Shown: positions 34,751 to 57,767 of the stretch, one piece after another
How positions within the stretch are numbered: position 1 is the stretch's first letter
How the letters are laid out: each line of letters begins with the position of its first letter
Assembly: GCF_036345915.1 (NCBI RefSeq)
Contig: NZ_CP107785.1
Location: forward strand, 1,612,001 to 1,676,000
Reading direction: 5' to 3'
From: Nocardia sp. NBC_00565
GTDB lineage: Bacteria; Actinomycetota; Actinomycetes; Mycobacteriales; Mycobacteriaceae
DNA: 64,000 nucleotides
The notes under the pieces: generated by a model
The model's database searches: none
Seen by the model: the letters and a program-made list of their open reading frames with translations, nothing else
What the model was told of the DNA's origin: nothing
Made by a program: the position numbers and the translations under genes

Positions 34751-35407
34751 TCATGGCCTGGTGAGGAGTTCGATTACGGCTTTGGCCTCTGCGGGTGTCG
34801 GGGTGGGCAGGTTTTCGCGACCGTGGATCAGGCCGATGCCGAGGTAGACCATCGCACCGGCGCGAATACGCGCCTGTGTCTTGTCGAAGCCGAGGTCGAT
34901 CATGGTTTTGTTCACGATTTCGAAGATCCGCTGCTCGAGGGCGGAGACCGCGGCCGCCACTTGGGGATCGCTGCGTGCCCATTCGCGCACGGTTGTTTCG
35001 ACGACCCAGGTACTGGCGTCGACCAGGATGGCGGTCATATTTTCGATTCGTTGTTCGACGGGAATCGAATCAATGGCGCCGAGGGCGCGAATGGTTTCGC
35101 TCTGTACGGTGGTCCAGCGGTCGGCCATCGCTTCGCGAAGTTGTTCGATGTCGTTGAAATGCCAGTAGAAACTACCTTTGGTGACGCCGAGTTCCTCGCA
35201 CAGCCGCGGGATCCGCACGGCGTTGACGCCTTCGCGGGCAAGTAAGGCCAAGGCGCCATCGACCCAGTCGTCGTATGAGAGACGCGGTGTGCGCCCGCTG
35301 GCGCGGCGTTGGCTTTGTGCCTTCTTCGACCGCTGCTGGAGGTGACCATGGTGTTGATCACCGCCGACGGGCTGGGGGGCGCCGCTGGGTGGTAGGTCGG
35401 TTGTCAT
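34751..35407 (-). CDS. TetR-family regulator, candidate controller of the mce island
   Basis: This 218-residue protein has an N-terminal helix-turn-helix (IPRLCEELGVTKGSFYWHFN, about residues 66-85) after a 45-residue extension, and an all-helical ligand domain ending VIELLTRP. ATG 35407 overlaps the lipase stop by 4 bp, so it is the second gene of a minus-strand pair. The upstream promoter carries the AGTAC-N8-GTACT palindrome that recurs at 49332. This makes autoregulation and control of the mce block likely, though not proven. Confidence 0.9.
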   Translation of the reverse strand: MTTDLPPSGAPQPVGGDQHHGHLQQRSKKAQSQRRASGRTPRLSYDDWVDGALALLAREGVNAVRIPRLCEELGVTKGSFYWHFNDIEQLREAMADRWTTVQSETIRALGAIDSIPVEQRIENMTAILVDASTWVVETTVREWARSDPQVAAAVSALEQRIFEIVNKTMIDLGFDKTQARIRAGAMVYLGIGLIHGRENLPTPTPAEAKAVIELLTRP

Positions 35408-36348
35408 CGGCCCGAAGGTGTGGTGTCGGCGGTACTCACCTCCTGATGGTAGGTCAGCGGGTCGGGTGCGCCGAGTGCGCCGCGGGTGAGCTGTTGTACG
35501 GCGGGGTCGTCGGGTAGGTGAAAGTGATCGGTTTTGTTGCTCGGTTCGAAGTCCTGCAGGATTACCGAACGCATTCCCGGGACCTCTGCTGAGAGCGGCG
35601 GTGATACCAGCGCGTCGGACATCGAAATGATGTTGATGTAGGAGACCCCAGGTGTCGGTACCCCGTCGCGATGCAGCGTCCTCAGGAACGTGGAACCGGC
35701 GATGAGCTGTCGGCATCCTGCGCAGAAGGGGTCCAGCACCGGCGATTCGAGCGCGAGTACGGCATCGTAGGTCCCCGCGTTGCGACTGAGCTGTTCGAGG
35801 GTACCGAGTTCGGCGATGTTGGTCCCGTTCCACATCGGTCCGATCGTCACGAGCTGGTGCACAGCTCGGCCTCGCGGGAAATGCTGCGTGAAGTACTGCG
35901 TCACAAGGGAACCGGAGCCATGAGCGACGAATGCCGGTGGCGTGCTCGCGGAGTCGGGCAGCGAGGCCACGAATCGGTCGAGTTCTGCCGCTGCCTCTTC
36001 GAGGGCGACCAGGCCCGCCGCGGTGCTGAGCAGCGCTGTCGTCGCCGTGGCGCCATAGCTGAATGTGAAGGGGCACCAGCCGCTTTCGTGTAGTGCCGCC
36101 GAGAGATTGTCGAACTCGCGCTGATCGCGTCCGATGTCGTGCACCAGAACGACAGGGCGCTGGCACGGCGTTGTCGCGGGGGCTTGGGCGCTCGCGCTGG
36201 GTTGCGGGGGTGCCAGACAAACCAGCGCGATCATCGCCACCGCTGCTGGGGCCTTGATTCGCGATTGAGGTGTCACCGGTTTCCTTCCTGGTGGGGCGGC
36301 CGGCCGACGCGACATGCACTCCCGGACCACGAACCGCGGATCTGCCAT
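35404..36348 (-). CDS. Secreted lipase-like protein with altered nucleophile motif
   Basis: This protein of up to 314 residues (ATG 36348 or 36315) has an export signal (APAAVAMIALVCLAPPQPSA) and an alpha/beta-hydrolase fold of the actinobacterial lipase type. VVLVHDIGRDQREFDNLSA is the oxyanion region, SMSDALVSPP contains the expected Asp, and DHFHLPDDP the expected His. The nucleophile elbow, normally GHSxGG, reads VAHGSGS: Gly stands where Ser is expected, with Ser one place later. It may be a non-catalytic relative or a shifted-nucleophile enzyme. It is co-transcribed with the TetR gene. Confidence 0.8.
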   Translation of the reverse strand: MADPRFVVRECMSRRPAAPPGRKPVTPQSRIKAPAAVAMIALVCLAPPQPSASAQAPATTPCQRPVVLVHDIGRDQREFDNLSAALHESGWCPFTFSYGATATTALLSTAAGLVALEEAAAELDRFVASLPDSASTPPAFVAHGSGSLVTQYFTQHFPRGRAVHQLVTIGPMWNGTNIAELGTLEQLSRNAGTYDAVLALESPVLDPFCAGCRQLIAGSTFLRTLHRDGVPTPGVSYINIISMSDALVSPPLSAEVPGMRSVILQDFEPSNKTDHFHLPDDPAVQQLTRGALGAPDPLTYHQEVSTADTTPSGR

Positions 36349-36356
36349 TACTTTTC

Positions 36357-36374
36357 AGTACCGTTCACTGTACT
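36357..36374. promoter_or_regulatory. Island operator, copy 1
   Basis: AGTACCGTTCACTGTACT is a 5-bp inverted repeat with an 8-bp spacer between the divergent lipase-TetR and multicopper oxidase-mce operons. The same arms and spacing, and further matching bases to the right (GTATGGT), recur at 49332. Confidence 0.7.
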
Positions 36375-36424
36375 AGATGGTATGGTCCCGCAATGGGTGC
36401 GCAATGAGGCCACCGGAGAAGGGC

Positions 36425-38257
36425 ATGAGGATGGACCGACCGATTCGACGACGGCACCTCCTACGCGGAGCCACCGCTGGTGTGCTGGGCGCGACGTTGT
36501 CGCAGACTCCGCTCGTGGCCGCCGATCCGCTGCCGCCGGGGGTGGACAGTCCGCTGTTGTTCCACTCTCCGAAGGTCGAACGGTTCGTCGACGAATTGCC
36601 CCGGCTGCCGATCCTGCGTGGCAGTGAAATCGAACTGATCGCCTCGACTACCGTTCACCGTTTCCATCGCGACTTACCCGAATCGCCCGCGTTCGGATAC
36701 AACGGCATGTCCTACCTCGGGCCGGTGATCGAGCATCGGGCCGGTCAGCCGTTGACCGCGACCTTCATCAATCGCCTCGGCACACATCCGTTCGCCGCCG
36801 ACATCGACACGACGTTGCACGGTGTCGAGGCGAAATACCGGAGCACGCCCCCGAGCTCATTGCATCTGCACGGCGGTGTGACTCCACCCGAGAGCGACGG
36901 TCATCCCGAGCAATTGGTGTTTCCTGGACAGGACATCGTTCATCGGTTCCCACTGCGGCAGGATGCCGGCCACCTGTGGTATCACGATCACGCGATGGGC
37001 ATCACCCGCGCGAACGTCTATGCGGGCTTGGCCGGGATGCTGTTGCTGCGCGACGCCTTCGACACCGGTGAACCCGATAATCCCGCCGGGCTGCCCGCCG
37101 CTGAGTTCGAGATTCCACTGGTGTTGCAGGAGAAGTTGTTCACCTCCGACGGGCACCAGAGCATCCGGTCCACGCTGATCGTGCCGCAAGGCGGCTGGGA
37201 GGGTGGGGCGGTCGGCGACATCGGTGTGGTCAACGGCAAGATCTGGCCGCAGATGCCGGTCAAACGTGGGCTCTACCGGTTCCGGACACTGAACGCCGCC
37301 TCGTTCAGTACCTGGAATCTGTACTTCAGCAACGGGATGCGGTTCTGGGTGATCGGAACCGAGCACGGACTGTTGAATGCGCCGGTCGCGGTACAGAATC
37401 TGCGGTTGGCGCCGGGGGAACGGGTCGATCTGCTGGTCGATTTCGCCGTCCTCGCCCCGGATGAGTCCGTCGAGCTGTGCAACGACGAGCAGCCGGTTTT
37501 CCAGGCGGCCATCCTCGGTGAGGTAGCGATGCCGGTGTTCTGCCGATTTCGTGTGCTCGACGCCGATGGCTTCGCCGGACCGATTCCCGAACGATTGCGT
37601 GGAGCGCCGCGCCAGCCCGCGGCGCTGCCGCCGCTGGAGACACCGACCGTGATTCGTAACGTGACGGTCAGTCAACCGTATGAGTTGCGTGATCCTCCGG
37701 CGATCATGTCGCTGAACAACATCACCTACGCCAGTCCGGAAATCGAGATGCCGCGCCAGGGCACCGTCGAGCAGTGGAACATCATCAACATCACCCCCGA
37801 TCCACACCCGATTCACCTGCACCTGGTGACCTTCCGGATCCTGGACCGCACCCCGTTGCGCACGGTGGACTTCCAACTGGCCCACCCGCAGCCACCGGTC
37901 GGTGTGAAATGGACGCCGTCGGCCGAGGACTTTCTCGCCGGCCCTGAGCAGCCACCGGCACCGTGGGAGTCCGGCTGGAAGGACATCGTGCGCGTCGATG
38001 GCGGCACCGTGACCCGCATCATCGTCCGCTTCCCGACCGCCGAGGAGCTCGGGTTCGATCCGGACGCGCCATTCCCCCGCCTTGCACCACATACCCACGC
38101 TCCCCTGTCCCACCAATCTGTGAACCCGGACCCGGTGGTGCATCCCGCGCATGGTTCGACGCCGGGGTCCGACCTGCAGGGCTATGTATGGCACTGCCAC
38201 CTGCTCGATCACGAAGACCACGACATGATGCTGCGATATCGGATGGTGCGAGGATGA
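36425..38257 (+). CDS. Tat-exported multicopper oxidase (CotA/bilirubin-oxidase-like)
   Basis: This 610-residue protein has a twin-arginine signal (RRRHLLRG, residues 8-15). All copper-binding motifs are visible: HLHGG (His147/149), WYHDH (His187/189), HPIHLHL, and C-terminal HCHLLDHEDHDMM with the type-1 Cys and Met. It should oxidise phenols, quinols or metal ions outside the cytoplasm with O2 reduced to water. ATG 36425 follows GGAGAAGG. It is the first gene of the operon leading into the mce genes, just after the shared operator. Its substrate may be the compound imported by the Mce system. Confidence 0.92.
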   Translation: MRMDRPIRRRHLLRGATAGVLGATLSQTPLVAADPLPPGVDSPLLFHSPKVERFVDELPRLPILRGSEIELIASTTVHRFHRDLPESPAFGYNGMSYLGPVIEHRAGQPLTATFINRLGTHPFAADIDTTLHGVEAKYRSTPPSSLHLHGGVTPPESDGHPEQLVFPGQDIVHRFPLRQDAGHLWYHDHAMGITRANVYAGLAGMLLLRDAFDTGEPDNPAGLPAAEFEIPLVLQEKLFTSDGHQSIRSTLIVPQGGWEGGAVGDIGVVNGKIWPQMPVKRGLYRFRTLNAASFSTWNLYFSNGMRFWVIGTEHGLLNAPVAVQNLRLAPGERVDLLVDFAVLAPDESVELCNDEQPVFQAAILGEVAMPVFCRFRVLDADGFAGPIPERLRGAPRQPAALPPLETPTVIRNVTVSQPYELRDPPAIMSLNNITYASPEIEMPRQGTVEQWNIINITPDPHPIHLHLVTFRILDRTPLRTVDFQLAHPQPPVGVKWTPSAEDFLAGPEQPPAPWESGWKDIVRVDGGTVTRIIVRFPTAEELGFDPDAPFPRLAPHTHAPLSHQSVNPDPVVHPAHGSTPGSDLQGYVWHCHLLDHEDHDMMLRYRMVRG

Positions 38258-39189
38258 GAATGCCGGTGCCCCAGCGGGTGGAGATCAGGGAAGTCGCGAT
38301 GCGCGACGGACTGCAGAACGAATGGCCGATCCCACTGGAAGCCAAACTGCGGTTGCTGCAAGCCATCTCGATGACCGGTGTACGTGAGGTTGAGGTGACC
38401 GCGTTCGTATCGGCATCTCGGGTGCCCGCGCACGCCGACGCCGAACAACTGGCCGCCCAACTGTATCGCTGGCCGAAGCTCACCTTCTCGGCCTTGGTCG
38501 CCAGTCTCACCGGCGCTCGCCGTGCGGTGGCCGCAGGCCTGGAAACGATCGAGTACGTGGTCTCGGCCGCCGATGGGCACAGCCACGCCAATGTCGGTCG
38601 GTCGAGCGCCGAAGCCGCCGCCCGCATCAGCGATATCGCCCAAGTGGTGCACAGCGCCGGAGGTCAGCTGGAAGTCATCGTCGCCACCGCATGGGATTGC
38701 CCGTTCGACGGACCGGTCGCACCGCAGCGGGTGATCGAGCTCGCCGACCGCGCGGTCGATACCGGCGCCGACGCTATTTCCCTGGCCGACACCATCGGAA
38801 CCACCACTCCGGCACGGGTGCTCGATCTCGTCGACCAGGTCCGGGCGGTGATCGGTCCCACCGCGCTCGGCGCCCACTTCCACAACACCTCGGGCACCGG
38901 ACTGGCCAGCGCGTACGCGGCATTGCTCGCCGGTGTCACTCGGCTGGACGCATCGGTGGGTGGACTGGGCGGGTGCCCGTTCGCGCCGGGAGCCAGCGGC
39001 AACATCGCCACCGAGGAACTGCTCTACCTGCTCGACGGATGCGGCGTCGCCTCCGGGCTGAATCTGCCCGCGGTGCTGACCGCGGCCGAGTTGGCTCAGC
39101 ACGCCGTCGACCGAACCGGTACCAGCAACCTGCTCGACGCCGAACGTGGCCGCCGCGACCGCGCACGGCAACAGGCGGAAAGCCGATGA
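38254..39189 (+). CDS. Hydroxymethylglutaryl-CoA-lyase-like protein
   Basis: This 311-residue HMGL-like TIM barrel has VEIREVAMRDGLQNE (metal-binding Asp, catalytic Arg), GAHFHNTSGTGLAS (metal-binding His pair), and GLGGCPFAPGASGN (active-site Cys loop). These fit HMG-CoA lyase, which splits 3-hydroxy-3-methyl acyl-CoAs to acetyl-CoA and a keto acid. Such lyases act in leucine and acyclic isoprenoid breakdown. It overlaps its neighbours by 4 bp on both sides, embedded between the oxidase and the Mce permease genes, an unusual place. Confidence 0.9.
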   Translation: MRMPVPQRVEIREVAMRDGLQNEWPIPLEAKLRLLQAISMTGVREVEVTAFVSASRVPAHADAEQLAAQLYRWPKLTFSALVASLTGARRAVAAGLETIEYVVSAADGHSHANVGRSSAEAAARISDIAQVVHSAGGQLEVIVATAWDCPFDGPVAPQRVIELADRAVDTGADAISLADTIGTTTPARVLDLVDQVRAVIGPTALGAHFHNTSGTGLASAYAALLAGVTRLDASVGGLGGCPFAPGASGNIATEELLYLLDGCGVASGLNLPAVLTAAELAQHAVDRTGTSNLLDAERGRRDRARQQAESR

Positions 39190-40013
39190 CCACCGCTCGT
39201 GGTGCTCTGCGCGCCGTGCCGGACACCGTGCACACCGGGGTCGCAAAGCTCACTGCCGCGGCCAGTACCGCGATCAGTTCGGTCGGGCAGTTCTATCTGC
39301 TGGCCGTGGATACCGCGCGTGCGTTGGCTCGCAGACGATTTCCCTGGTCGGAGTTCATCGAACAACTATGGTTCCTGGCGCGCGTGTCGCTGCTACCGAC
39401 GGTGATGATGTCGATCCCGTTCACGGTGCTGGTCGTGTTCACCCTCAATTCGCTGTTGGGCGAGATCGGTGCCCGCGATCTGGCCGGTGCGGGTGCTGGG
39501 CTGGGAGCGGTCACCCAGATCGGGCCGTTGGTGACGGTGTTGGTGGTGGCCGGAGCCGGGGCCACGGCCATTGCCGCCGATATCGGGTCGCGCGTGATCA
39601 GGGAGGAAGTCGCGGCGATCGAGGTGCTCGGCATCGACCCGATACACCGGCTGGTGCTGCCGCGGGTTCTGGCCTCGACGGTGGTCGCGATCCTGCTCAA
39701 CGGTGCCGTGTGCACTATTGGATTGATCGGAGGTTTTTTCTTCTCGGTCTATCTGCAAGATGTCTCGCCCGGCTCGTATGCCTCCAGTGTCACGCTGCTG
39801 GTCGGGTTGGGGGAGCTGGCACTCTCAGAGATCAAGGCCGCCGTATCGGGCATGATCGCCGGATTGGTGGCGTGCCATCGTGGGTTGTCGGTCACCGGGG
39901 GCGCCAAAAGTGTCGGCAATGCGGTGAACGAGACAGTGGTGTTCACTGCGGTGGCGCTGTTCGTCGCCAATACGGTGTTGACCTCGATCGGGCTCGCCCT
40001 TGGGGGGCACTGA
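39186..40013 (+). CDS. yrbEA: YrbE-family (MlaE) Mce permease subunit A
   Basis: This 275-residue integral membrane protein has the MlaE/YrbE pattern: five or six membrane segments and ARDLAGAGAGLGAVTQIGPLV, then EEVAAIEVLGIDPIHRLVLP, the conserved cytoplasmic loop. With YrbEB it forms the permease of a lipid-importing Mce complex in the inner membrane. ATG 39186 overlaps the lyase stop. No Mkl ATPase is encoded here; a shared one elsewhere is usual. Confidence 0.92.
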   Translation: MTTARGALRAVPDTVHTGVAKLTAAASTAISSVGQFYLLAVDTARALARRRFPWSEFIEQLWFLARVSLLPTVMMSIPFTVLVVFTLNSLLGEIGARDLAGAGAGLGAVTQIGPLVTVLVVAGAGATAIAADIGSRVIREEVAAIEVLGIDPIHRLVLPRVLASTVVAILLNGAVCTIGLIGGFFFSVYLQDVSPGSYASSVTLLVGLGELALSEIKAAVSGMIAGLVACHRGLSVTGGAKSVGNAVNETVVFTAVALFVANTVLTSIGLALGGH

Positions 40014-40861
40014 TGATATCGGGAACCGATCGGAGGCGGGCGGTCCGCAGGCGACTGGCCGCGTTGAGCAGGGGAGTCGATGCGGTCGGCGCCCAGGTGG
40101 TCTTCTATCTGCGGGCGCTGGGATCGGTGGGCAAAGCCGCGCGCTCGTACCACGAGGAAACGCTGCGCCTGATCTCGGAGATCAGTCTGGGTTCCGGTGT
40201 TCTCGCGCTGGTCGGCGGCAGCGTGGTGATCATGGGATTTCTGACCTTTTTCGCCGGTGCGACGGTGGCCATTCAGGGCTACGACGCACTCGGCGGAATC
40301 GGGGTAGAAGCCTTCACCGGATTTCTGTCCGCCTACGTCAATGTCCGTGTGGTAGCCCCTGTGACCGCAGGGGTCGGTTTGGCGGCCACCATCGGAGCGG
40401 GCACGACCGCCGAGCTGGGGGCCATGCGGATCAGCGAAGAGATCGATGCGCTCGACGCGATGGCCATCCCAGCGGTGCCCTACTTGGTCGGCACCCGTCT
40501 GCTGGCCGGGGCGATCGTGGTGGTGCCACTGTATGCCCTCGGTGTCGTGGCCGCGTTCTTCGCCAGCCGCATCACCACGGTGGTGATCCTCGGCCAATCC
40601 GCCGGCGTCTATGACCACTACTTCACCACCTTCCTCAACCCCGACGACGTGCTGTGGTCGTTCGCCCAAGCCATCGTGATGGCGGTGGCGGTGATGCTGA
40701 TCCACACCTACTACGGATTCCACACCAGCGGCGGCCCCGCCGGAGTCGGCGTCGCCACCGGACGCGCGGTACGACTGTCGCTGATCAGCGTGGTCACGGT
40801 GACCTTGATGATTTCGCTGGCACTGTACGGAAGTGCCCGCCAACTGCACTTGGCGGGCTGA
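40013..40861 (+). CDS. yrbEB: YrbE-family (MlaE) Mce permease subunit B
   Basis: This 282-residue protein starts at ATG 40013, overlapping the previous stop by one base. MlaE motifs include VTAGVGLAATIGAGTTAELG and EEIDALDAMAIPAVPYLVGT. It pairs with YrbEA. It ends 6 bp before mceA. Confidence 0.93.
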   Translation: MISGTDRRRAVRRRLAALSRGVDAVGAQVVFYLRALGSVGKAARSYHEETLRLISEISLGSGVLALVGGSVVIMGFLTFFAGATVAIQGYDALGGIGVEAFTGFLSAYVNVRVVAPVTAGVGLAATIGAGTTAELGAMRISEEIDALDAMAIPAVPYLVGTRLLAGAIVVVPLYALGVVAAFFASRITTVVILGQSAGVYDHYFTTFLNPDDVLWSFAQAIVMAVAVMLIHTYYGFHTSGGPAGVGVATGRAVRLSLISVVTVTLMISLALYGSARQLHLAG

Positions 40862-40867: not shown

Positions 40868-42043
40868 ATGACCAATATGAAAAACAAGCTCGCAGCCCTA
40901 GCGCTGGTCGCGGCTCTGGCGGCGGCGATCGCCGTGACGTACTACTCGTATCGGGGCGCGTTCCGGCCCGCCGATCTGATCACCATCGAATCCGGTCGCG
41001 CTGGTCTGGCGTTGCGTATCGGTGCGTTGGTCAAACATCACGGCGTGGAGGTCGGTCGTGTCAGCGCCATCCATCAGGACCCAGATCGTGGCGCGGTTGT
41101 CACCGTGCGCTTGGATCGGGACAAGGCCGGCTCCATTCCGGCCGCGACGGGCGCCGACATCAGATCGACCACTATTTTCGGCGAGAAGTACATCACCCTG
41201 ACCGATCCGGCGGTCACGACCAGCGGGGCCATCTCCGCCGGAACCGTGATTCGGGCGTCGTCGGTGACGACGGAAATCAACTCGGTATTCGAATCGCTGA
41301 CTGCGGTACTGGCCGCAGTCACGCCGGAGAAACTCGACACCACCTTGTCCGCGATTGCCGCAGCTCTGCGCGGAAATGGTGCCGACTTGGGGCGAGCGAT
41401 CGATGACGCCAATATCGTGCTGGCACAGATCAATCCGCGTCTGCCCCAGATCAATCACGACCTGCGTGCGACCGCGGACGCCACCACCATCTATGCCGAC
41501 GCCGCCGATGACCTGGTGGCCACACTCACCAACGCCGCCACCCCGGCTGCCACTCTGGTCGCCGAAGGTGACCGACTCGACCACACCTTGCTTTCGATCA
41601 TCGGGATGGCCGATACCGGCAACGATGTACTCGCCACCAGTAGTGAGCCGTTGATCTCGGAGCTGACGTTGCTACGGCCGACGACCGACCTGCTCGGCGA
41701 GTACTCCCCGATGCTCACCTGCTTCCTGCAAGGGGCCGACGAGGCCCGCAAACTCGCCGAACCGGTCGCCGGTGGCGACGGCGCGACTATGAAGTTGCGC
41801 TCGAGCCTGCTTTTCGGAGTGGATCCCTACGATTATCCCGCCAGCCTGCCGGTAGTCGCTGCCGCCGGCGGCCCGCGCTGCGGATCGTTGCCGAAAGTCA
41901 CCATGTCCGAGGTTCCCACCCCTTATGTGGTGGCCGACATCGGAGCCAATCCCTTCAGCAATGACACCGGCGCGCCACGCCTGGTGCCGGGCTCGCTGCT
42001 GGACCTGTTGCTGTCCACCTCGTCACCGAGGGCACCGCGATGA
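40868..42043 (+). CDS. mceA: Mce family protein A
   Basis: This 391-residue protein has one N-terminal membrane anchor (LAALALVAALAAAIAVTYYS), a MlaD/Mce domain with GALVKHHGVEVGRVSAI and TTIFGEKYITL, and a helical C-terminal region. Six such proteins A-F are thought to form the periplasm-spanning lipid channel. It is shorter than many MceA proteins and lacks long low-complexity tails. It overlaps mceB by 4 bp. Confidence 0.92.
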   Translation: MTNMKNKLAALALVAALAAAIAVTYYSYRGAFRPADLITIESGRAGLALRIGALVKHHGVEVGRVSAIHQDPDRGAVVTVRLDRDKAGSIPAATGADIRSTTIFGEKYITLTDPAVTTSGAISAGTVIRASSVTTEINSVFESLTAVLAAVTPEKLDTTLSAIAAALRGNGADLGRAIDDANIVLAQINPRLPQINHDLRATADATTIYADAADDLVATLTNAATPAATLVAEGDRLDHTLLSIIGMADTGNDVLATSSEPLISELTLLRPTTDLLGEYSPMLTCFLQGADEARKLAEPVAGGDGATMKLRSSLLFGVDPYDYPASLPVVAAAGGPRCGSLPKVTMSEVPTPYVVADIGANPFSNDTGAPRLVPGSLLDLLLSTSSPRAPR

Positions 42044-43062
42044 AATCCAGGGCAGTGGCCGTCAAAACCGGCGTATTCACCGTGTGCATGCTGCTGGTGC
42101 TGGCCGGATTGGTGGTGGTGTTCGGTCAGTTCCGCTTCGATGACCGGACCAGCTATCACGCGGTGTTCACCGACGCCTCCGGACTCGAAGCCGGTGACTT
42201 CGTGCGGGTCGCCGGCGTCGAGGTTGGCCGGGTCGGCGCGGTGAAGATCGGGCAGGCCTACCACGCGCAGGTGGAACTGAACCTCGACGACAATTACCGC
42301 CCGACCCGCGCCACACGGGCGGTCATCCGATACCAGAATCTGGTCGGCGATCGCTATCTGGAACTGCGCGAAGGCGATGGGGATCCGGCACCGGTACCGG
42401 CGGGCTACACCATCGGTCTCGACCACACCGCTCCGGCACTGGACATGGATCTGCTCATCGGCAGCTTCCAGCCACTGTTCCGCGGGCTCGAGCCCGACCA
42501 GATCAACCATCTTTCGGCCGAGTTGATCGCGGTCCTGCAAGGTCAAGGAAGTACTGTGCAGTCACTGCTCGCACACGCCGCGTCGCTGACGAGCACCCTC
42601 GCCGATCGCGACCAGCTCATCGGCACGGTCATCACCAACCTCAACACCGTGCTGGGCGGCATCGACAAACACAACGGCGAATTCTCCTCCGCTCTGGACA
42701 CGATCCAACAGATCGCCACCGGACTGGCCCAGGACAGCACCACATGGGGACAGGCACTCGAACAGATCGACACCTCCGCCGCGACCGTGGCTGCGCTGCT
42801 GGGACAAGACCGTGCGGCGTTGGCCGGCACGATCGGTGAACTCGACCGCACCGCCACCCAACTCAACGCCGGTAGCGGCACTCTCGACAGCGTGCTGGGC
42901 CGGTTGCCCGACACCTATGCGGCGCTGAGCCGCCTCGGCGCGTACGGCAACTTCTTCAACTACTACCTATGCGGTCTCCGGATCAAACTCAACGGTCCCG
43001 ACGGCGCCGCGGTCACTACCCCCCTCTTCGGGCAAACCACGGGAAGGTGCGCTCCGAAATGA
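42040..43062 (+). CDS. mceB: Mce family protein B
   Basis: This 340-residue protein has an N-terminal membrane helix (VCMLLVLAGLVVVFGQF), a Mce domain with GLEAGDFVRVAGVEVGRVGA and IRYQNLVGDRYLEL, and a coiled C-terminal half. It overlaps mceA and mceC by 4 bp each. Confidence 0.92.
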   Translation: MKSRAVAVKTGVFTVCMLLVLAGLVVVFGQFRFDDRTSYHAVFTDASGLEAGDFVRVAGVEVGRVGAVKIGQAYHAQVELNLDDNYRPTRATRAVIRYQNLVGDRYLELREGDGDPAPVPAGYTIGLDHTAPALDMDLLIGSFQPLFRGLEPDQINHLSAELIAVLQGQGSTVQSLLAHAASLTSTLADRDQLIGTVITNLNTVLGGIDKHNGEFSSALDTIQQIATGLAQDSTTWGQALEQIDTSAATVAALLGQDRAALAGTIGELDRTATQLNAGSGTLDSVLGRLPDTYAALSRLGAYGNFFNYYLCGLRIKLNGPDGAAVTTPLFGQTTGRCAPK

Positions 43063-49331: not shown

Positions 49332-49349
49332 AGTACCGTCTTATGTACT
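49332..49349. promoter_or_regulatory. Island operator, copy 2
   Basis: AGTACCGTCTTATGTACT has the same arms, the same 8-bp spacer and the same CCGT after the left arm as copy 1 at 36357. A GTATGGT follows both at equal distance. It lies between the divergent Mce-associated genes and the catabolic operon starting at 49416. Confidence 0.72.
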
Positions 49350-49415: not shown

Positions 49416-50567
49416 ATGTCGGCTGGCACCGTCGAAGAGCATTTCCAGCGCATTCCCTATAGCCCAGCGGCTGACGGGAAAGTGGAAATCCACTCCGGAC
49501 TCAGCCGCCACTACCCGACGTTGCACGCCAATCTGGTGACGCCGCCACGGTTTTCGCGCGACCTGGCGGTGGTGATGGCGCATCCCTCGTCCAATTTCCT
49601 GTCCCATTTCTTGCTGAACGGGTTCGCCGAGGCCGGCATCCCGATCATGGGGCTGAACACCCGCTACGCCTGCAATGAGGCCGCGCTGCTGATGGAGCGT
49701 GCGGCCCAGGATCTGGGCGCGGGCGTCCGGTGGCTGCGCGAAGAACTCGGCTTCCAACGGGTGGTGCTACTGGGCTTCAGCGGCGGCGGCTCATTGGCGT
49801 CGTTCTATCAGGGCCAGGCCGAGAACCCAACGGTCACCGCAACTCCCAGTGGCGACGCAGTGTCGTTCGAGGACCTGGTGCCAGCCGATGGCATCATGCT
49901 TGTCGGCGCGCACCCTGGTCGCGCGCGGGTCTTGGCGAATTGGATCGATCCCTCGGTCGTACGAGAGGACGACCCCTATCGCAGCGACCCCGAATTGGGC
50001 CTGTACGCGCCCGAGCGTGAGCTTCCACTGTCAGCGGCATGGGTCACCCGCTATCGCGCTGCGCAGCGTCGGCGTATCGACCGCATCGATGCCTGGGTGC
50101 TCGAGCAACTCGAGCGGACCGACGTCCATGCGGGCTCGGATCGGGCGTTTGTGGTGCACCGCACCGTCGCTGATCCCCGCTTCGTCGATGTGAGCTTGGA
50201 TCCCAGCGACCGCAAACCCGGCAGCATGTACGGCGATCCGGCCGCAGCCAACTGGAGTGCGGGTGGGTTGGCGCGGTTCGTTACCGCCCGTAGCTGGCTG
50301 AGTACCTGGAGTATCAACCATTCCCGCGCCGACGCGCTGAGCGATTTGACCAGTGTCAAGGTGCCCACGGTGGTGATGGCTCTACGCGGGGACCAGGCCG
50401 CGTTCGTCAGTGAATCACGGCAGATGCACGCGGCCAGCGCTGACCCGTCTGCCGAAATCATCGAGATCGCTGAACTCGATCACTATCTCGTCGATAAACC
50501 CGAAGGCCTCGGCCAGATCATCGCCGAGTTGCTGACCTGGCTGCGTGCGCGCGGCCTCACCGACTGA
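49416..50567 (+). CDS. Alpha/beta hydrolase of the island
   Basis: This 383-residue protein has the nucleophile elbow LLGFSGGGSLASF (Ser122), AVVMAHPSSNF as the oxyanion region, a probable Asp in ALRGDQAAFV and His in ELDHYLVDKP. It has a larger insert (residues about 180-270) than simple esterases. No signal peptide, so cytoplasmic. It is the first gene after the second operator; ester or C-C bond cleavage of the imported compound is a plausible role. Confidence 0.82.
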   Translation: MSAGTVEEHFQRIPYSPAADGKVEIHSGLSRHYPTLHANLVTPPRFSRDLAVVMAHPSSNFLSHFLLNGFAEAGIPIMGLNTRYACNEAALLMERAAQDLGAGVRWLREELGFQRVVLLGFSGGGSLASFYQGQAENPTVTATPSGDAVSFEDLVPADGIMLVGAHPGRARVLANWIDPSVVREDDPYRSDPELGLYAPERELPLSAAWVTRYRAAQRRRIDRIDAWVLEQLERTDVHAGSDRAFVVHRTVADPRFVDVSLDPSDRKPGSMYGDPAAANWSAGGLARFVTARSWLSTWSINHSRADALSDLTSVKVPTVVMALRGDQAAFVSESRQMHAASADPSAEIIEIAELDHYLVDKPEGLGQIIAELLTWLRARGLTD

Positions 50568-50620: not shown

Positions 50621-51916
50621 ATGTCAGTGCAAGCATCGTCGACGGCCCGCGGCCAGGTCGGCGGCGGCGAACCTCCGGTGAAATGTCCGAGCGCATTCCG
50701 CTATTGGGAATCGCTGCGCTCGCCGAAAGTTCAACGCCTGCAACGACTGGTCAAAACCATCACCGGTGGTGCGCTTTTTCCCACCGAGAGCCAGGCCGCG
50801 GCGTTGTGTGAAGACCTCTTCGCCGGTGACCCGGTCGCGGAGAGGTTCGTCGCGGAGGTGATGCACGGCGAGATCGGGCCGCAGCGCGGACGGCAGATGC
50901 TCGATGCCGCATTATCGGGTGGCATCGACTCGGTGCCGGAGGCTCCGGAGTCGATGAAAGCGCTGTTCGCGGAGTTCGAGACCGTACCCGACTGGGTCCA
51001 GCCCGAGCTCGTCGAACAGGGGGCCGCGATTTGGCGGCGGTGGGGAACCATGCTGTTCAGTTTCGCCGGTGCCGAAACCTTGGAAATGTACACCGAATCA
51101 GCGGTGGCGACCCCGTTGTCGCTGGCCGGGGGCTATGCGGGCGACAGTGCACTGCGCCGATTCCTCGAGACCAGCCGCTTCTGGATGGACGTCTCGCAAC
51201 CCGGCGCTCTGCTCACACCGGGTTCGAACGGGCGAGCGACCGCATTGAAGGTCCGGGTCATGCATGTTTCGGTCCGCGCCAGGGTCGCCGGTCACCCGGA
51301 GTGGGATATCGACAAATGGGGGCTGCCCATCAGCCAGACTTATCAACTGCTCACCCTGCTCGCTGGCAGCGTCACACCGGGGCTGGGGCTGTGGCTGCTG
51401 GGATACCAAACCACTGCATCCGAGATCCGCGCCCTGCTGCATTTCCAGAAGTACATGGGCTACGTGCTGGGGGTTCGGCTGCGGTGGTATCCGGAATCAG
51501 TGGTCGACTCCTTGCGGGTTTTGGCGATGACGATCGCGTCGCGTTCCTACGATGCCGGGCACCACGGTGCCGAACTCATCGAGTCCTACCCGATGGCGTT
51601 CGCGCCGCGCGACGGCCACCGCGGATTGACCCGTTTACGCGAGGTCTACAACTTCCGTATCAATTCCGTCTATTCGGCGATGTATATGGCCCCGCGGACC
51701 CGGCGCCGCTACCGTATGCCGCCAGCTTTTCCGTGGATCATGATTCCGATCGCACGATTCCCGCTGATCACCGTGATGGAGCTGGCACGTCGGCTGTTTC
51801 CGCCGTTCGCGCGGATCCACGAAAAACTCATGCTCTGGCACCGCGAGAACTGGTACCGCGCCCAAATGCAAGGCAGGCAAGCCCAATTCGACGCCAGCGG
51901 GGCGCTGCGGCGCTGA
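50621..51916 (+). CDS. MpaB/Lcp-family (DUF2236) oxygenase
   Basis: This 431-residue protein belongs to the DUF2236 family, with the hallmark helix ALKVRVMHVSVRARVAGHPE containing the haem-ligand-type His, and WGLPISQTYQLLTLLAGS. Family members include latex-clearing protein, which cuts polyisoprene double bonds to aldehyde and ketone ends, and MpaB, which cleaves a farnesyl side chain in mycophenolic acid synthesis. No Tat signal is seen, unlike Lcp, so it should act inside the cell. A C-terminal stretch FPWIMIPIARFPLITVMELA may associate with the membrane. An oxidative cut of an isoprenoid chain is inferred. Confidence 0.82.
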   Translation: MSVQASSTARGQVGGGEPPVKCPSAFRYWESLRSPKVQRLQRLVKTITGGALFPTESQAAALCEDLFAGDPVAERFVAEVMHGEIGPQRGRQMLDAALSGGIDSVPEAPESMKALFAEFETVPDWVQPELVEQGAAIWRRWGTMLFSFAGAETLEMYTESAVATPLSLAGGYAGDSALRRFLETSRFWMDVSQPGALLTPGSNGRATALKVRVMHVSVRARVAGHPEWDIDKWGLPISQTYQLLTLLAGSVTPGLGLWLLGYQTTASEIRALLHFQKYMGYVLGVRLRWYPESVVDSLRVLAMTIASRSYDAGHHGAELIESYPMAFAPRDGHRGLTRLREVYNFRINSVYSAMYMAPRTRRRYRMPPAFPWIMIPIARFPLITVMELARRLFPPFARIHEKLMLWHRENWYRAQMQGRQAQFDASGALRR

Positions 51917-52027: not shown

Positions 52028-53092
52028 ATGACCCCCACCGAAATCATCGAAGCATGGAACGGTCCCGGCCGTCTGGACGGAACATTGACCACTGTGCAGG
52101 CGCGCCACAACGGCTTGCATCCCTCGTCGAATAAACTCGCCTTCGAGCATTGGTACTTCGATGCTCATCTCGACAGTGGGCACACCGTGATCGGGTTTCT
52201 CACGAAACGTCGACCCGAGGATCTGCCCAACGCCCGTCCCTGGGTAGAAATGATCGTCTATAACCCGGACGGTTCACGACGCCAGGTGGCCAAGCGATAT
52301 CCGCGGGCAGCGGCGTCGTTCTCCACATCGGGTTGTGATGTCCGCATCGGATCCAACACCGCTCGCACCGAGTTCCCCGCGACCGGTCTGCCGATCCACC
52401 ATGTTCACTTCGTGGAAGGCGACCTGGTATTCGACTTGCAGTTCCACAACGAGACGCCCAGTTGGATGCCAGGACAAGGTGAGACCCGTTTCGGTGCGAC
52501 CGACAGCTTCGGTTGGGTCGTCGGTGCACCGCGCGCCCGAGTGACCGGGACCGTCCAAATCGACGGGAAAGTCCTCACGGTCACCGGGCGGGGGTATGCC
52601 GACCACAACTGGGGTGTCGGTGACATGAAGAAAGTCATCGACCGTTGGCACTGGGGACGGCTGTATGTCCAGGAATACTCGCTGCTGTATGCGAACGTTC
52701 GCACCCAGAAACAGCACGGTTCGCACGACATCGCCCCACTGATGTTGGCAAAAGGCGCCGACATCATCTTGTCGACCGGCGAAATGGCCCTGACCGAAGG
52801 CCCGGGTCGATACAACCCGATCGCCGACCGGGAATATCCGGAATGGATCGAGCTCCAGGTTCCTGGTCGGCTCGAGCTGCGGCTGACCGTTCAGTCGGTC
52901 ATTCACGCCCACGACCTCATCGACGATTTCCCCATCGTGCGGTCCCGGCTGATCAAGCCTTTGATGCATTTCGCGATCGGACACCCGGCGTATTTCCGCT
53001 TCGAGTCCGCCGTCGAATTGACTGTTCACACCGATAGCGGTTCCCAACAATATACCGGCACCACCCTGCACGAACTCGTCGCTCTGACATGA
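52028..53092 (+). CDS. CrtC/AttH-like lipocalin-fold protein
   Basis: This 354-residue protein fits the AttH/CrtC family: [19 protein letters not shown] near the N-terminus, [14 protein letters not shown] in the middle, and a beta-rich C-terminal half. CrtC adds water to terminal isoprenoid double bonds in carotenoids; other members act on terpenes or bind lipids. No signal peptide. Its place directly after the MpaB/Lcp-like oxygenase supports an isoprenoid or lipid substrate. Confidence 0.8.
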
Positions 53093-53150: not shown

Positions 53151-54500
53151 ATGACGATCACCAGAGTTGCTGCGCCTCCCGAGCCGAACCCCGCCCGGGA
53201 TACGGTCGCGGGTCTGAAGTATTTGAGCGGCTTCGGCAACGAACATTGCAGCGAAGCAGTACCTGGCGCGTTGCCGGTGCATCAGAACTCACCACAGAAA
53301 GCCCCGTTCGGTTTGTACACCGAGCAGCTCTCGGCGACAGCGTTCACCGAGCCACGGGTGGTCAATCGACGCAGCTGGGTTTACCGCATCACCCCCTCGG
53401 CCAAGCATCCGCCGTTTACCCGTGCCGATGACCGCACGTTTCGCAGTGCACCGGTTCTCGACGGGGTCGCCGACCCGAACCGGCTGCGATGGAACCCCTT
53501 GCCCGAAACGTGGCCGGAGGCCGACTTCCTCGACAGCATCTACACCCTCGCCGCCAACGGAAATGTACTGCAACGGCAAGGAATCGCGATCCATCTCTAC
53601 CGGGCGACACGATCGATGCAGTCGCGCTACTTCGGCAACAATGACGGCGAGTTGCTGGTCGTGCCTCAGCAGGGCCAGCTGCTGGTACATACCGAGTTCG
53701 GCAAGCTGGCGGTAGCGCCTACCCAATTCGCGGTCATCGGACGCGGCATCCGGTTCCGGGTCGAACTGCTCGACCCCCTCGCCGTGGGCTACGTGTGCGA
53801 GAACTACGGGGCGCCGTTCACCTTGCCCGAACTGGGACCGATCGGGGCCAACGGGCTGGCCCATGCCCGCCATTTCCGCTATCCCGTCGCCGCCTACGAA
53901 GACAACACCGGACCGGTGCAAGTCGTCCAAAAGTTCGGAGGGCACTTGTGGGCCGCCGACTACGACCATTCACCACTGGATGTGGTGGCCTGGCACGGAT
54001 CACATGCCGCCTACGTCTTCGACCTGGACGATTTCAACGCCGTCGGCATGATCGGCTTCGATCACCCGGACCCCTCGATTTTCGCGGTGCTGACCTCGCT
54101 GTCGGACACACCCGGCCAAGCCAACGTCGATTTCTTGGCATTTCCTCCGCGCTGGAATGTCGCCGAGCACACTTTCCGGCCTCCGCATTTCCACCGCAAT
54201 GTGATGACCGAGTTCATGGGATTGGTGCAGGGCGTTCACGATTCCAAGGCCGAGGGTTTTCTGCCCGGCGGAGCCAGCTTGCACAACATGTGGTCCGCCC
54301 ACGGTCCCGATCACGAGACGTTCGACAAAGCCAGTACCGCGGAACTGACACCGCAGAAGATCGAGGGATCACTGGCGTTCATGTTCGAGACCCGCTGGCC
54401 GTTGGTGGTCACCGACTTCGCCCACGCCGCACCCCACCGCCAACCGCACTACGACACGTCGTGGGCAGATTTGCAGCGGCTGTTCACCCCACCGAACTGA
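53151..54500 (+). CDS. hmgA: Homogentisate 1,2-dioxygenase
   Basis: This 449-residue cupin cleaves the ring of homogentisate to maleylacetoacetate. The N-terminal signature [19 protein letters not shown] is clear. Iron ligands and active-site residues are in place: [10 protein letters not shown] (His and Glu), [18 protein letters not shown] (His pair), and VVAWHG. The usual partners (isomerase and fumarylacetoacetase) are not in the block, so this may be a second copy, or the later steps are encoded elsewhere. The substrate head group homogentisate also occurs in prenylquinone and tocochromanol chemistry. Confidence 0.95.
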
Positions 54501-54556: not shown

Positions 54557-56032
54557 ATGACCTCCGAAACAATCACCCCCGCCTTCGATCTGCCCGAGCC
54601 GACGTTACGCATCAACGGCCAACATATCGGCGCGCATGCTGGGCAGACCTACGAGTCGTTCAACCCGTCCACCGAAGAACTGGTCACCACCGTCGCCGCG
54701 GCACAACCCGAGGATGTCGACACCGCGGTCGCGGCGGCCCGCGCGCAACTGGAGGGCGGACCATGGTCGCGGATGAGCGGCTCCGAACGCGGACGAATTC
54801 TGACACGCGCCGCCCAGCTGATCGAGGAGGACGCACACAACCTGGCCGCATTGGAAGCGGTGGAGATGGGCAAGCTGTTCCACGACTCGGTCCGCGGTGA
54901 CATCCCGGCGGCCGCCGAAGCGTTTCGGCACTTCGCCGGTTGGGCGGACAAAGTAACCGGCACCACAGTCCAGCTGCCCGACTTCGGGCCCCAGCGACGA
55001 TTCGGCTACACCATCCGACAACCGCTGGGAGTGCTGGGAGCGATCACCCCCTGGAACAACCCGGTACTGATCGCCGCCTGGAAGTTGGCGCCAGCATTGG
55101 CGGCTGGATGCACGGCCGTGATCAAACCCGCCGAGGACGCGTCGTTGTCCACCCTGCGCCTTGGCGAGCTGCTCGCCGACGCCGGACTGCCCGACGGCGT
55201 GCTCAACATCGTGCCGGGCCTGGGAGCGGTGGCCGGAGCCGCGCTGGCCGGTCACAGCGGCATCGACAAGATCTCCTTCACCGGAAGCCTCCGCGTCGGC
55301 AAACAGATTCAAAGCTTGGCCGGAGATACCTTCCGCAAAGTAACCCTGGAACTCGGCGGAAAATCACCGCAGCTGGTCTTCGCCGACGCCGACCTCGACC
55401 AAGCGATGCCGTGGATCGCGATGGGCAACTTTTATCACCAAGGCCAGGTCTGTGCCGCCGGAACCAGGGTGCTGGCGCACGAATCAATCGTCGACAAGGT
55501 CATCGAAGGCCTTATCGACGCCGCTGAAAACGCACAAATCGGAGACCCGTTCGCATCCGCCAGCACGATGGGCGCCATCGTCAACGGCCGCCAGCTGGAC
55601 CAGATCCTGCGCTATATCGACATCGGACGTGCGGAGGGCGCCGAACTACTCGCCGGAGGCGGACGTGTCGCTCGCAGTGGTTACTTCGTCGAACCTACTG
55701 TGTTCCGCGGCAGCAACGATCTGACCATCGCGCGCGAGGAAATCTTCGGACCGGTGGCCACCGTGATCAGTTTCAAAGACACCGACGAAGCGATCCACTT
55801 GGCCAATGCCACCAAATACGGGCTCAACGCCATGGTCTACACCAGCGACCTGTCGCGAGCGCTCGCCGTCACCGAGCAATTACGGGTCGGGACGGTGTGG
55901 GTCAACGGGTGGGGAGTGCCGGATCCAGCACTGCCATGGGGTGGTCGCGCGGGCTCAGGCATCGGCCGAGAACTCGGACGCAGCGGCATCGAAGCCGACA
56001 CCGAGGAAAAGACAGTTCACATCGGGATATAG
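54557..56032 (+). CDS. NAD(P)-dependent aldehyde dehydrogenase
   Basis: This 491-residue ALDH has the cofactor loop SFTGSLRVGKQI, catalytic Glu in TLELGGKSPQ, and catalytic Cys in YHQGQVCAAGTRV. ITPWNNPVLIAAWKLAPALA is the Rossmann entry. ATG 54557 follows GGGAGACCCCC at good spacing. Oxidation of an aldehyde from the MpaB/Lcp-like reaction would place it next in the pathway. Confidence 0.94.
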   Translation: MTSETITPAFDLPEPTLRINGQHIGAHAGQTYESFNPSTEELVTTVAAAQPEDVDTAVAAARAQLEGGPWSRMSGSERGRILTRAAQLIEEDAHNLAALEAVEMGKLFHDSVRGDIPAAAEAFRHFAGWADKVTGTTVQLPDFGPQRRFGYTIRQPLGVLGAITPWNNPVLIAAWKLAPALAAGCTAVIKPAEDASLSTLRLGELLADAGLPDGVLNIVPGLGAVAGAALAGHSGIDKISFTGSLRVGKQIQSLAGDTFRKVTLELGGKSPQLVFADADLDQAMPWIAMGNFYHQGQVCAAGTRVLAHESIVDKVIEGLIDAAENAQIGDPFASASTMGAIVNGRQLDQILRYIDIGRAEGAELLAGGGRVARSGYFVEPTVFRGSNDLTIAREEIFGPVATVISFKDTDEAIHLANATKYGLNAMVYTSDLSRALAVTEQLRVGTVWVNGWGVPDPALPWGGRAGSGIGRELGRSGIEADTEEKTVHIGI

Positions 56033-56113
56033 ACCCGACAGCCTTCGACGCCGCGACCCGAGCTGGGGACTGCGTGCAGGCAGACACCGACGCAATTGCA
56101 ATACAGGAGTTCG

Positions 56114-57331
56114 ATGGACGCACAACAACAGATCACCGGACCCTTGGACGGCATCCGAGTACTCGAACTCGGCTCGCTGATCGCCGGGCCTTTCGCGGCT
56201 CGGCTGCTCGGCGACCTGGGTGCACAGATCATCAAGATCGAACCCCCGACTGCCGGTGACCCGCTGCGCACCTGGGGCCAAGCCGAGCACGACGGGCACC
56301 ACTTCCATTGGACGACCCTGGCCCGCAACAAACAATCCATCACCTTGAACCTGCGTGCGGCCCGTGGACGGGAGTTGCTGCTGGAGCTGGTCGCACACAG
56401 CGACGTCGTCGTAGAGAACTTCCGGCCGGGCACCCTGGAAGGCTGGGGCCTGGGCTACGACGTTCTCCACGAACGCAATCCAGGACTCGTACTGGCCCGA
56501 GTATCCGGCTACGGGCAGACCGGACCATCAGCGCAGCTGCCCGGCTACGCCTCGGTCGCCGAAGCGGTGAGCGGGCTGCGTCACCTCAATGGCTACCCCG
56601 GCCAAGCTCCGCCCCGGCTGGCGCTGTCGCTGGGCGACAGCCTGGCGGGCATGTTCGCCGCCCACGGTGTGCTGGCGGCTCTGTATCACCGCAGCCAGAC
56701 CGGGCAGGGACAGGTGGTGGATGTCGCGCTCACCGAAGCGTGCCTGGCAATCCAGGAATCGGCGATCGCCGACTACGACATCGGCGGCATCATCCGCGGA
56801 CCCTCTGGCACCCGCCTCGAGGGGATCGCGCCATCGAACCTCTACCGCACCCACGACGGCGTGTGGTTGGTGATCGCCGCCAACCAAGACAGCGTGTTCG
56901 GGCGCCTGTGCCGGGCTATGGGCCAACCGGACCTGGCGACGGACCCTCGCTTCAGCGACCACCGCGCCCGCGGCCGCAACCAGGACGAACTCGACGACAT
57001 CATCGCCACCTGGGCCAGCGCGCGGACCGCCGACAAACTCACGACAATCTTGGCCGCGGCCGGGGTGGCCGCGGGACGCGTCAACACCATCGCCGAGGTC
57101 GTCGCCGACCCGCAGATGCAGGCACGACAGATGATCGTCGACCACTATGACCAACGCGTCGGACGGACCGTTCGAGGCCCCGGCATCGTTCCGAAACTCA
57201 GTGCCACACCCGGCAGCGTCCGCAACGCAGGACCCCCCGAACCCGGATCCGACAACGATTACGTCTACCGCACCCTGCTCGGACTCGGCGACGTCGAACG
57301 CCGCGAGCTGCGTGAGGCCGGTGTCATCTGA
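56114..57331 (+). CDS. CaiB/BaiF (class III) CoA transferase
   Basis: This 405-residue protein has the family III signatures: GIRVLELGSLIAGPFAARLL, VVENFRPGTLEGWGLGYDVL, SGYGQTGP, and catalytic Asp in LALSLGDSLAGMF. It transfers CoA to a carboxylic acid, which could activate the acid produced by the aldehyde dehydrogenase for beta-oxidation. ATG 56114 has AGGAG 6 nt upstream. Confidence 0.94.
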   Translation: MDAQQQITGPLDGIRVLELGSLIAGPFAARLLGDLGAQIIKIEPPTAGDPLRTWGQAEHDGHHFHWTTLARNKQSITLNLRAARGRELLLELVAHSDVVVENFRPGTLEGWGLGYDVLHERNPGLVLARVSGYGQTGPSAQLPGYASVAEAVSGLRHLNGYPGQAPPRLALSLGDSLAGMFAAHGVLAALYHRSQTGQGQVVDVALTEACLAIQESAIADYDIGGIIRGPSGTRLEGIAPSNLYRTHDGVWLVIAANQDSVFGRLCRAMGQPDLATDPRFSDHRARGRNQDELDDIIATWASARTADKLTTILAAAGVAAGRVNTIAEVVADPQMQARQMIVDHYDQRVGRTVRGPGIVPKLSATPGSVRNAGPPEPGSDNDYVYRTLLGLGDVERRELREAGVI

Positions 57332-57383
57332 GCGAGGTGCGAGTCCATTTGATCATCCGCCCGGCAAAGGAGCTGAATCCGCC

Positions 57384-57767
57384 GTGTTCCTCGCCTACGT
57401 CGTCTCAACAGCTGTGCTCGCCACCGCGATGACGCTCGCCGCGGTCGCCTCAGCGATGCGCCACCGAACTATCGTGGACACCCTCGATGCTGTGGGCGTC
57501 CCCGCACCGATGCAGAACCTGTTGACGGCCGCGCTGCAGACCGGAGCTGTCGGCCTGGTAATTGGAATCTTCATTCCCGCAGTCGGATTCGCGGCGGCAG
57601 TGTGCACGAGTGTGTACTTCATCGGCGCGGCGTGTGCTCACCTGCGCATCGGTCGGCATGACATCGGCGCCGCAACGATACTCCTTCTGCGGAGTGTTTC
57701 GGTCAGGCGTCCCGGACGCGGGCTTGTCGATCGACGACGGGGGGTTCGGTGGACCATGGGAAGTTGA
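57384..57767 (+). CDS. DoxX-like membrane protein, 3' end probably replaced at a junction
   Basis: The frame starts at GTG 57384 (AAAGGAG 11 nt upstream). It has four hydrophobic segments typical of DoxX-like proteins (YVVSTAVLATAMTLAAVAS, ALQTGAVGLVIGIFIPAVGF, CTSVYFIGAACAHLRIG, AATILLL). Family homology stops at about 57690. The last 25 residues (SVSVRRPGRGLVDRRRG and on) are basic and read antisense to the phosphoribosyltransferase end. The gene appears cut at the block boundary. Confidence 0.6.
   Translation: MFLAYVVSTAVLATAMTLAAVASAMRHRTIVDTLDAVGVPAPMQNLLTAALQTGAVGLVIGIFIPAVGFAAAVCTSVYFIGAACAHLRIGRHDIGAATILLLRSVSVRRPGRGLVDRRRGVRWTMGS

Follow-up and report, generated by a model that had tools for sequence, protein, structure and literature searches.

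In the mce4/cholesterol catabolic region of actinobacteria, an Mce importer of two YrbE and six Mce proteins lies beside catabolic genes and a TetR-type regulator. Plants make vitamin E and plastoquinone in very large amounts, and our searches of open-licence PMC full text gave no bacterial gene set for the catabolism of tocopherol/vitamin E or plastoquinone. According to a passage in PMC12724181, MpaB cuts a prenyl double bond on a prenylated aromatic, at the terminal unit and with an acid product; a passage in PMC5805349 describes kievitone hydratase as hydrating the prenyl group of an isoflavonoid and also acting on xanthohumol. Here we analyze a 64-kb window, meaning the whole stretch of DNA under study, from positions 1612001-1676000 of contig NZ_CP107785.1 of Nocardia sp. 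NBC_00565, whose 9.71 Mb genome is a single contig. A block at 34751..57690 of this window joins an Mce system to genes for a laccase-like oxidase, an MpaB/Lcp-type oxygenase, a CrtC-like protein and a homogentisate dioxygenase (HGD)-type enzyme. The recurrence of this gene set, the pairing of HGD with the oxygenase, a shared palindrome, the conservation of active-site residues and the HGD clade were all computed directly. On these grounds we tentatively propose that the block is under TetR control and serves to break down a hydrophobic prenylated hydroquinone, most likely one resembling plastoquinone or a tocochromanol; we rate the chances of this proposal a little below even.

The wider distribution of these genes was followed with a CrtC-like profile, which gave 79 named loci (from the best 80 of 514 confirmed matches). 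We kept 70 of the 79 at a CrtC-like identity of at least 44%; the nine others fell below 44% or had no match at the cut-offs. Partner genes were counted with identity cut-offs chosen gene by gene. Many loci are truncated by the 10-kb flanks and by contig ends, 55 having both flanks, so that distant partners (the HMG-CoA-lyase-like [HMGL] gene, YrbE and the oxidase) are undercounted. All or some of the genes are found together, variously ordered, in Nocardia, Rhodococcus, Gordonia, Williamsia and Dietzia. The initial annotation had proposed looking for the same gene order in other actinobacterial genomes; the set does recur together, but its order differs between loci. Thus, everything from the oxidase through HMGL and mce runs in one direction in Rhodococcus spelaei (L067), and mce is convergent in L056, L068 and L172. 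The MpaB-type gene is present in 66 of the 70 loci, directly upstream in 55. TetR relatives were counted in 50, the oxidase in 30, aldehyde dehydrogenase (ALDH) in 26, HGD in 24 and the alpha/beta-hydrolase in 23, with the CaiB-type gene in 12 and HMGL in 2. Mce D/E/F (at least 45% identical) occur in 16 loci, 15 of them with HGD.

We conclude that the cluster is composite, and that its core of TetR regulator, secreted laccase-like oxidase, MpaB/Lcp-type oxygenase and CrtC-like protein is often found alone. In L040, L048, L050 and L059 (Aeromicrobium, Nocardioides and related metagenome-assembled genomes [MAGs]), this core adjoins a different Mce operon, 31-49% identical, and the Gordonia locus L047 has mce, oxygenase, ALDH, CaiB and CrtC-like genes with no HGD. 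The window itself can be read as a prenyl-acting core together with a ring-and-acid module (HGD, alpha/beta-hydrolase, ALDH, CaiB and HMGL) and an Mce importer. A separate observation concerns L065, from a record titled as a Bifidobacterium breve MAG: its core resembles that of a Solirubrobacteraceae MAG (L066), and the title is probably wrong.

The HGD-type enzyme is homologous over its full length to HmgA (3zds), and its active-site lysine is kept, as are the iron ligands H348, E354 and H384 (in 24, 24 and 23 of 24 loci, respectively, where covered). One position stands apart. Aligned through 3zds, His363 of the window enzyme falls at Pseudomonas putida position 346, where both the P. putida and the human enzymes have Tyr, so the HmgA tyrosine is absent from the cluster enzyme. 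A passage in PMC6337169, citing a crystal study, describes homogentisate as contacting Tyr346, after which a loop closes over the site. We compared 145 sequences: the window enzyme, those of 24 cluster loci and 120 database proteins (the nearest 120 of 8000 scored). His was found in 58 and Tyr in 87; the window and 24/24 cluster loci have His, and the database proteins divide into 33 His and 87 Tyr. The residue two before an iron ligand, Trp329 in HmgA and otherwise Trp or Tyr, is also His in 55 of the 58 His-type sequences, and further fixed changes relative to HmgA are seen in the His-type enzymes. On a tree of 110 sequences, built with positions 346 and 362-366 removed and leaving out L034 and 34 of the 87 Tyr-type rows, the Tyr-to-His replacement is a single change, with a Shimodaira-Hasegawa-like approximate likelihood ratio test (SH-aLRT) value of 99. 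Judged by sequence, the cluster HGD enzymes therefore form a derived clade in which a substrate-contacting position has changed, which is new here. Because that position is altered, plain homogentisate may not be the substrate, and a pocket changed at two aromatic positions could accept ring methyl groups.

The HGD gene is also tied to the oxygenase gene. In a family sample of 251 genomes (thresholds E ≤ 1e-100 for HGD and E ≤ 1e-140 for the MpaB-type gene), 29 have HGD and 63 the MpaB-type gene, and 28 of the 29 have both, separated by at most 1,405 bases (Fisher p 1.5e-18, with related genomes treated as independent). All 28/28 HGD loci of this sample other than the window carry His. In the 29th genome (G275, locus L170), a shortened HGD directly abuts a piece of the secreted-hydrolase-like gene, and ALDH, CaiB and mce are close by. 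This locus gave no match to four genes, those of the oxidase, the alpha/beta-hydrolase, the MpaB-type oxygenase and the CrtC-like protein, implying that the middle of the cluster was lost and that G275 is a deletion remnant. Among 59 sampled Nocardia genomes, HGD (at least 70% identical) occurs in 4, each time adjoining the MpaB-type gene, which is itself found (at least 72% identical) in 29. In one of those 4 (G040, locus L100), pieces of HGD and ALDH lie in one open frame with no residue at position 363; we read this locus likewise as a deletion remnant of the cluster.

A role for the cluster HGD in tyrosine catabolism was considered and rejected. The same genome has a separate 4-hydroxyphenylpyruvate dioxygenase (HPPD) gene at 6.67 Mb and a divergent HGD (28% identical over part of its length) at 2.86 Mb, with a fumarylacetoacetate (FAA) hydrolase about 1 kb on, and the cluster HGD is tied to the MpaB-type gene. 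In five loci of other Nocardia (L129-L133), a relative of the alpha/beta-hydrolase (37-44% identical) comes after a divergent HGD-like dioxygenase; four of them also carry CaiB (63-70%), one ALDH (57%) and one HMGL (59%). These loci were picked by hand and are not a random sample, two having been chosen because the alpha/beta-hydrolase had already been seen beside an HGD-like gene. Neither the short locus L110 nor the divergent HGD of the window genome has an adjoining alpha/beta-hydrolase. We note L129-L133 as a second orphan ring-cleavage module.

The block has two divergent promoters, and the TetR-type palindrome AGTACCGTnnnnTGTACT stands at each: operator 1 separates the minus-strand TetR side from the oxidase unit, and operator 2 separates the mas genes from the catabolic operon. 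There are 11 exact AGTAC-N8-GTACT palindromes in the genome, and the form AGTACCGTnnnnTGTACT is confined to the two block sites; an exact-match search of the genome, in which mismatched sites were not sought, gave no further copy. The loose palindrome is not enriched genome-wide, since a reversed control gave 13 sites against its 11. Within the window, four matches are found when three mismatches are allowed, against a shuffle mean of 1.0, and 3 of 100 shuffles reach four. Across the 70 loci (1.37 Mb), there are 14 sites with two or fewer mismatches, 13 of them near a TetR, oxidase or MpaB-type start and one elsewhere. We infer that the TetR protein would bind both predicted operators.

What would the core enzymes do? 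The CrtC-like profile matches one solved protein at E ≤ 0.1, namely 7a0q (E 8.1e-7), which was named as kievitone hydratase by fold search. The predicted model (mean predicted local distance difference test [pLDDT] 87.5) has a double-barrel fold, for which the top Foldseek match is AttH (2ich), followed by kievitone hydratase. Identity to kievitone hydratase and carotenoid 1,2-hydratase is about 13% in the fold alignment. Residues D192, W207 and W209 are spaced as are D268, W283 and W285 of RgCrtC, which that enzyme requires according to a passage in PMC12402844; the three are invariant in 70/70 loci, and W42 is kept in 69/69 where covered. As for the MpaB-type oxygenase, alignment to the rubber oxygenase 5o1m places H215, R180 and T184 on LcpK30 H198, R164 and T168, pocket residues whose roles are described in part of PMC12724181. 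H215 and R180 are kept in 66/66 loci, and position 184 is Thr in 64 and Ser in 2. The distal lysine of LcpK30, K167, is absent, with Glu183 in its place in 66/66 loci, and the window oxygenase has no N-terminal hydrophobic export segment.

The best PDB match of the multicopper oxidase is the spore coat protein A laccase (E 8.7e-75). It has the motifs HxH, HxH, HPxHxH, HCH, H612 and M617 and the twin-arginine translocation (Tat) motif RRRHL; the positions tallied, H165 not being one of them, are unchanged in 29 to 31 aligned matches. Its true start is probably 36404 or 36434, the listed open reading frame (ORF) starting at 36377. The curated model closest to the ALDH is that of the phenylacetaldehyde dehydrogenase StyD (NF045736). 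The Ser-Asp-His set of the alpha/beta-hydrolase is conserved; its solved relatives are generic esterases and lipases, so that a role as a ring-fission-product hydrolase rests on gene company. The model matched by HMGL, NF004283, is a broad subfamily model.

These assignments suggest a route. Outside the cell, the phenol or hydroquinone would be a target of the secreted oxidase, which could for example open a chromanol to the quinone, and the Mce system, to judge from its family, would import the molecule. The CrtC-like protein might then add or remove water at a prenyl double bond, for example by dehydrating the tertiary alcohol of tocopherylquinone, and the MpaB-type oxygenase would cut the ring-adjacent double bond to give an isoprenoid ketone and a dihydroxyphenylacetaldehyde. 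Oxidation of this aldehyde by the StyD-like ALDH would yield a homogentisate bearing the ring's other substituents, whose ring the His-type HGD would open. Finally, the alpha/beta-hydrolase may split the fission product, and CaiB and the HMGL-like lyase may process methyl-branched diacids. A single cut at the ring-proximal double bond would release an arylacetaldehyde, a product that suits the StyD-like ALDH, so the chain would not have to be lost in steps. With a substrate resembling plastoquinone or a tocochromanol, such a mechanism would leave no core gene without a role. A more specific version is bacterial mineralization of plastoquinone and vitamin-E-type tocochromanols: the laccase would open the chromanol, Mce would import the product, a reversed kievitone-hydratase-type step would restore the prenyl double bond, the MpaB-type enzyme would cut on the ring side, the retooled HGD would act on methylated homogentisate, and CaiB and the HMGL-like enzyme would take the branched diacids. 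We consider this version possible yet doubtful.

Several observations weigh against the prenylated-hydroquinone reading. HGD occurs in 16 of the 55 full-length loci and in none of the other 39; likewise, the MpaB-type gene (at least 72%) is found without HGD (at least 70%) in 25 of the 29 sampled Nocardia genomes that carry it. A core without HGD is thus commoner than one with it, so ring cleavage looks like an add-on that the core does not require. MpaB is known to cut at the terminal dimethylallyl bond, which is distant from the ring, and not at the ring-proximal one. Foldseek also matches the CrtC-like model to pericyclases and, lower, to 25-phosphosteroid lyase; with several fold families matching, the fold alone leaves the reaction unfixed, and the curated carotenoid 1,2-hydratase model (NF045922) gives 24.5 bits against a cut-off of 400. 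The ALDH scores 636.7 bits against the StyD cut-off of 800, and the best NCBIfam score of CaiB is 258.4 bits against 750, below the cut-offs of succinate-glutarate CoA-transferase and the other named families. The roles given to Mas, ALDH, CaiB and the alpha/beta-hydrolase rest on position or distant matches, and the placement of the HGD pocket residues on alignment and a published passage rather than on a structure of this enzyme. No fumarylacetoacetate hydrolase (FAH), isomerase or CoA ligase gene is found within the cluster. The 13 promoter-near palindromes all come from Nocardia, where they occupy 13 of the 31 loci, and none was found in the 39 loci belonging to other genera; beside the alpha/beta-hydrolase, a palindrome with two or fewer mismatches is seen only in the window. 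The initial annotation had envisaged import and catabolism of a prenylated aromatic, by loss of the chain in steps and then cleavage of a homogentisate-like ring. The general proposal gains support from the kievitone hydratase match, the MpaB/Lcp pocket, the lock between HGD and MpaB and the shared palindrome. The proposed sequence of events has to be revised: stepwise loss would be unnecessary, the HGD is altered, and ring cleavage, with HGD present in 16/55 loci, looks like an add-on.

The same evidence bears on other substrates. A serious rival, although we think it unlikely, is that the substrates are plant prenylated phenolics (prenyl-flavonoids and prenyl-phenols) rather than prenylquinones; the CrtC-like protein would then hydrate the prenyl group, the oxidase would attack the phenol and the MpaB-type enzyme would shorten the side chain. 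Kievitone hydratase is, after all, the sole solved profile match, and the part of PMC5805349 cited above has it acting on prenylated isoflavonoids and xanthohumol. The 39/55 full-length loci with a core and no HGD fit this explanation too. An HGD-type enzyme, however, requires a 2,5-dihydroxyphenylacetate-like ring, and no hydroxylase to make one is present in the cluster. Non-isoprenoid alkenyl- or alkyl-phenols, such as cardanol-like lipids, might instead be imported and cut, since the range of MpaB-family oxygenases extends, as a passage in PMC12724181 reports, to the cleavage of alkenes that are not isoprenoid, for example nitrile rubber; the Asp and Trp set of the CrtC-like protein is that of prenyl-double-bond enzymes, and we give this explanation very little chance.

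In a sterol or terpenoid pathway for side chain and ring, the Mce system would work as mce4 does and the CrtC-like protein as a 25-phosphosteroid lyase at a tertiary carbon. That lyase is indeed among the fold matches, and Mce4_CUP1 domains are matched, although PF11887 is general to the Mce proteins here. The best folds are nevertheless AttH and kievitone hydratase, and about 12 further YrbEB-like genes in the genome imply that other Mce loci are free for sterols; known sterol routes, to our knowledge, include neither HGD-type ring cleavage nor a StyD-like ALDH. We regard this pathway as improbable. Degradation of polyisoprene or a carotenoid, with HGD as an unrelated passenger, would suit MpaB/Lcp and CrtC as isoprenoid-related families, but HGD is tightly linked to the oxygenase gene in 28/29 sampled genomes, and Lcp is secreted whereas this oxygenase has no N-terminal export segment, which makes such a pathway most improbable. 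We retain a plastoquinone- or tocochromanol-like hydroquinone as the most likely substrate.

The features of the block are collected in the table. Every gene class that had been named there at the outset is present, as judged by ORFs and family profile matches, and we add two genes to that list, the secreted alpha/beta-hydrolase-like gene and the alpha/beta-hydrolase gene. The block end first given, 57690, falls inside a DoxX-like ORF (57147-57767). This ORF overlaps the end of the CoA-transferase gene and is not among the partners in the loci table. Just upstream of the block, at 33404-34306, lies an IS4/5-type transposase (DUF4096, DDE), a possible trace of mobility.

Table. Features of the block, in window coordinates, with the evidence for each
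Feature	Position	Strand	Evidence
TetR-family regulator	34751..35338	-	PF00440 45.3 bits; relatives in 50/70 loci
Secreted alpha/beta-hydrolase-like protein, AHGSG without nucleophile Ser	35404..36348	-	no Pfam/NCBIfam match
Predicted TetR operator 1, AGTACCGTTCACTGTACT	36357..36374	.	palindrome
Tat-exported multicopper oxidase, CotA/bilirubin-oxidase type	36377..38257	+	PF07731, PF07732
HMG-CoA-lyase-like (HMGL) enzyme	38254..39189	+	NF004283 271.9 bits, cut-off 246
YrbEA permease	39186..40013	+	PF02405
YrbEB permease	40010..40861	+	PF02405
MceA to MceF	40868..47915	+	PF02470 and PF11887 in all six
Two Mas-like proteins	48077..48700 and 48712..49305	-	position beside mce, hydrophobic segment
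Predicted TetR operator 2, AGTACCGTCTTATGTACT	49332..49349	.	palindrome
Alpha/beta-hydrolase, triad S122, D326, H356	49416..50567	+	residue conservation
MpaB/Lcp-family haem oxygenase (DUF2236), cytoplasmic form	50621..51916	+	PF09995 (MPAB_Lcp_cat) 47.1 bits, cut-off 23
CrtC/AttH-like protein, relative of kievitone hydratase	52028..53092	+	PF07143; profile match 7a0q
HGD-type dioxygenase, His363 clade	53151..54500	+	TIGR01015 618.7 bits, cut-off 510.75
Aldehyde dehydrogenase (ALDH)	about 54557..56032	+	PF00171
CaiB-type CoA-transferase (family III)	about 56114..57331	+	PF02515

The importer follows the actinobacterial Mce layout, with two YrbE permeases and then six Mce proteins in order. MceA, C, D, E and F were scanned against TIGR00996, and all match. 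The closest other copy of YrbEB in the genome is 65% identical. The genome as a whole holds 26 YrbE-type matches, about 13 of them YrbEB-like, pointing to many Mce loci. Profile scans gave no family match for the two Mas-like proteins, whose relatives adjoin mce elsewhere. The secreted protein upstream of the oxidase has AxGxG in the window and in the seven relatives read (L054, L055, L063, L067, L068, L071 and L075), GxSxG being the usual nucleophile motif. We rejected it as a working lipase because Gly occupies the nucleophile position in 8/8 sequences; perhaps it is a binding protein.

If the preferred reading is true, one orphan Mce system would gain a substrate, and homogentisate dioxygenase would prove to have been adapted to another ring. 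The question can be tested directly, because the unit recurs and includes an entry enzyme, an importer and a ring-cleavage enzyme marked by a diagnostic Tyr-to-His change. In open-licence full text, subscription papers being outside this scope, we found no paper joining as many as three of the cluster's six defining terms, and DUF2236 was not found together with homogentisate.

Set beside the described systems, the cluster shares with the mce4 region an importer, catabolic genes and a TetR regulator, but has HGD, MpaB-type, CrtC-like and laccase-like oxidase genes and no sterol genes. Its HGD resembles HmgA in whole-length homology, iron ligands and lysine, and differs in the replacement of Tyr346 by His and in its company, no HPPD, isomerase or FAH gene being present in the cluster. 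The CrtC-like protein has the fold and the Asp/Trp/Trp spacing of kievitone hydratase and carotenoid 1,2-hydratase, at about 13% identity. With MpaB and LcpK30, the oxygenase has PF09995, the Arg, the Thr and the haem His in common, whereas Glu183 replaces the distal Lys and there is no export segment. When MpaB cleaves the mycophenolic acid side chain, it likewise cuts oxidatively within the prenyl chain of an aromatic, but that system is fungal and biosynthetic and acts on the terminal bond, whereas we propose that the cluster described here is catabolic and goes on to cleave the ring.

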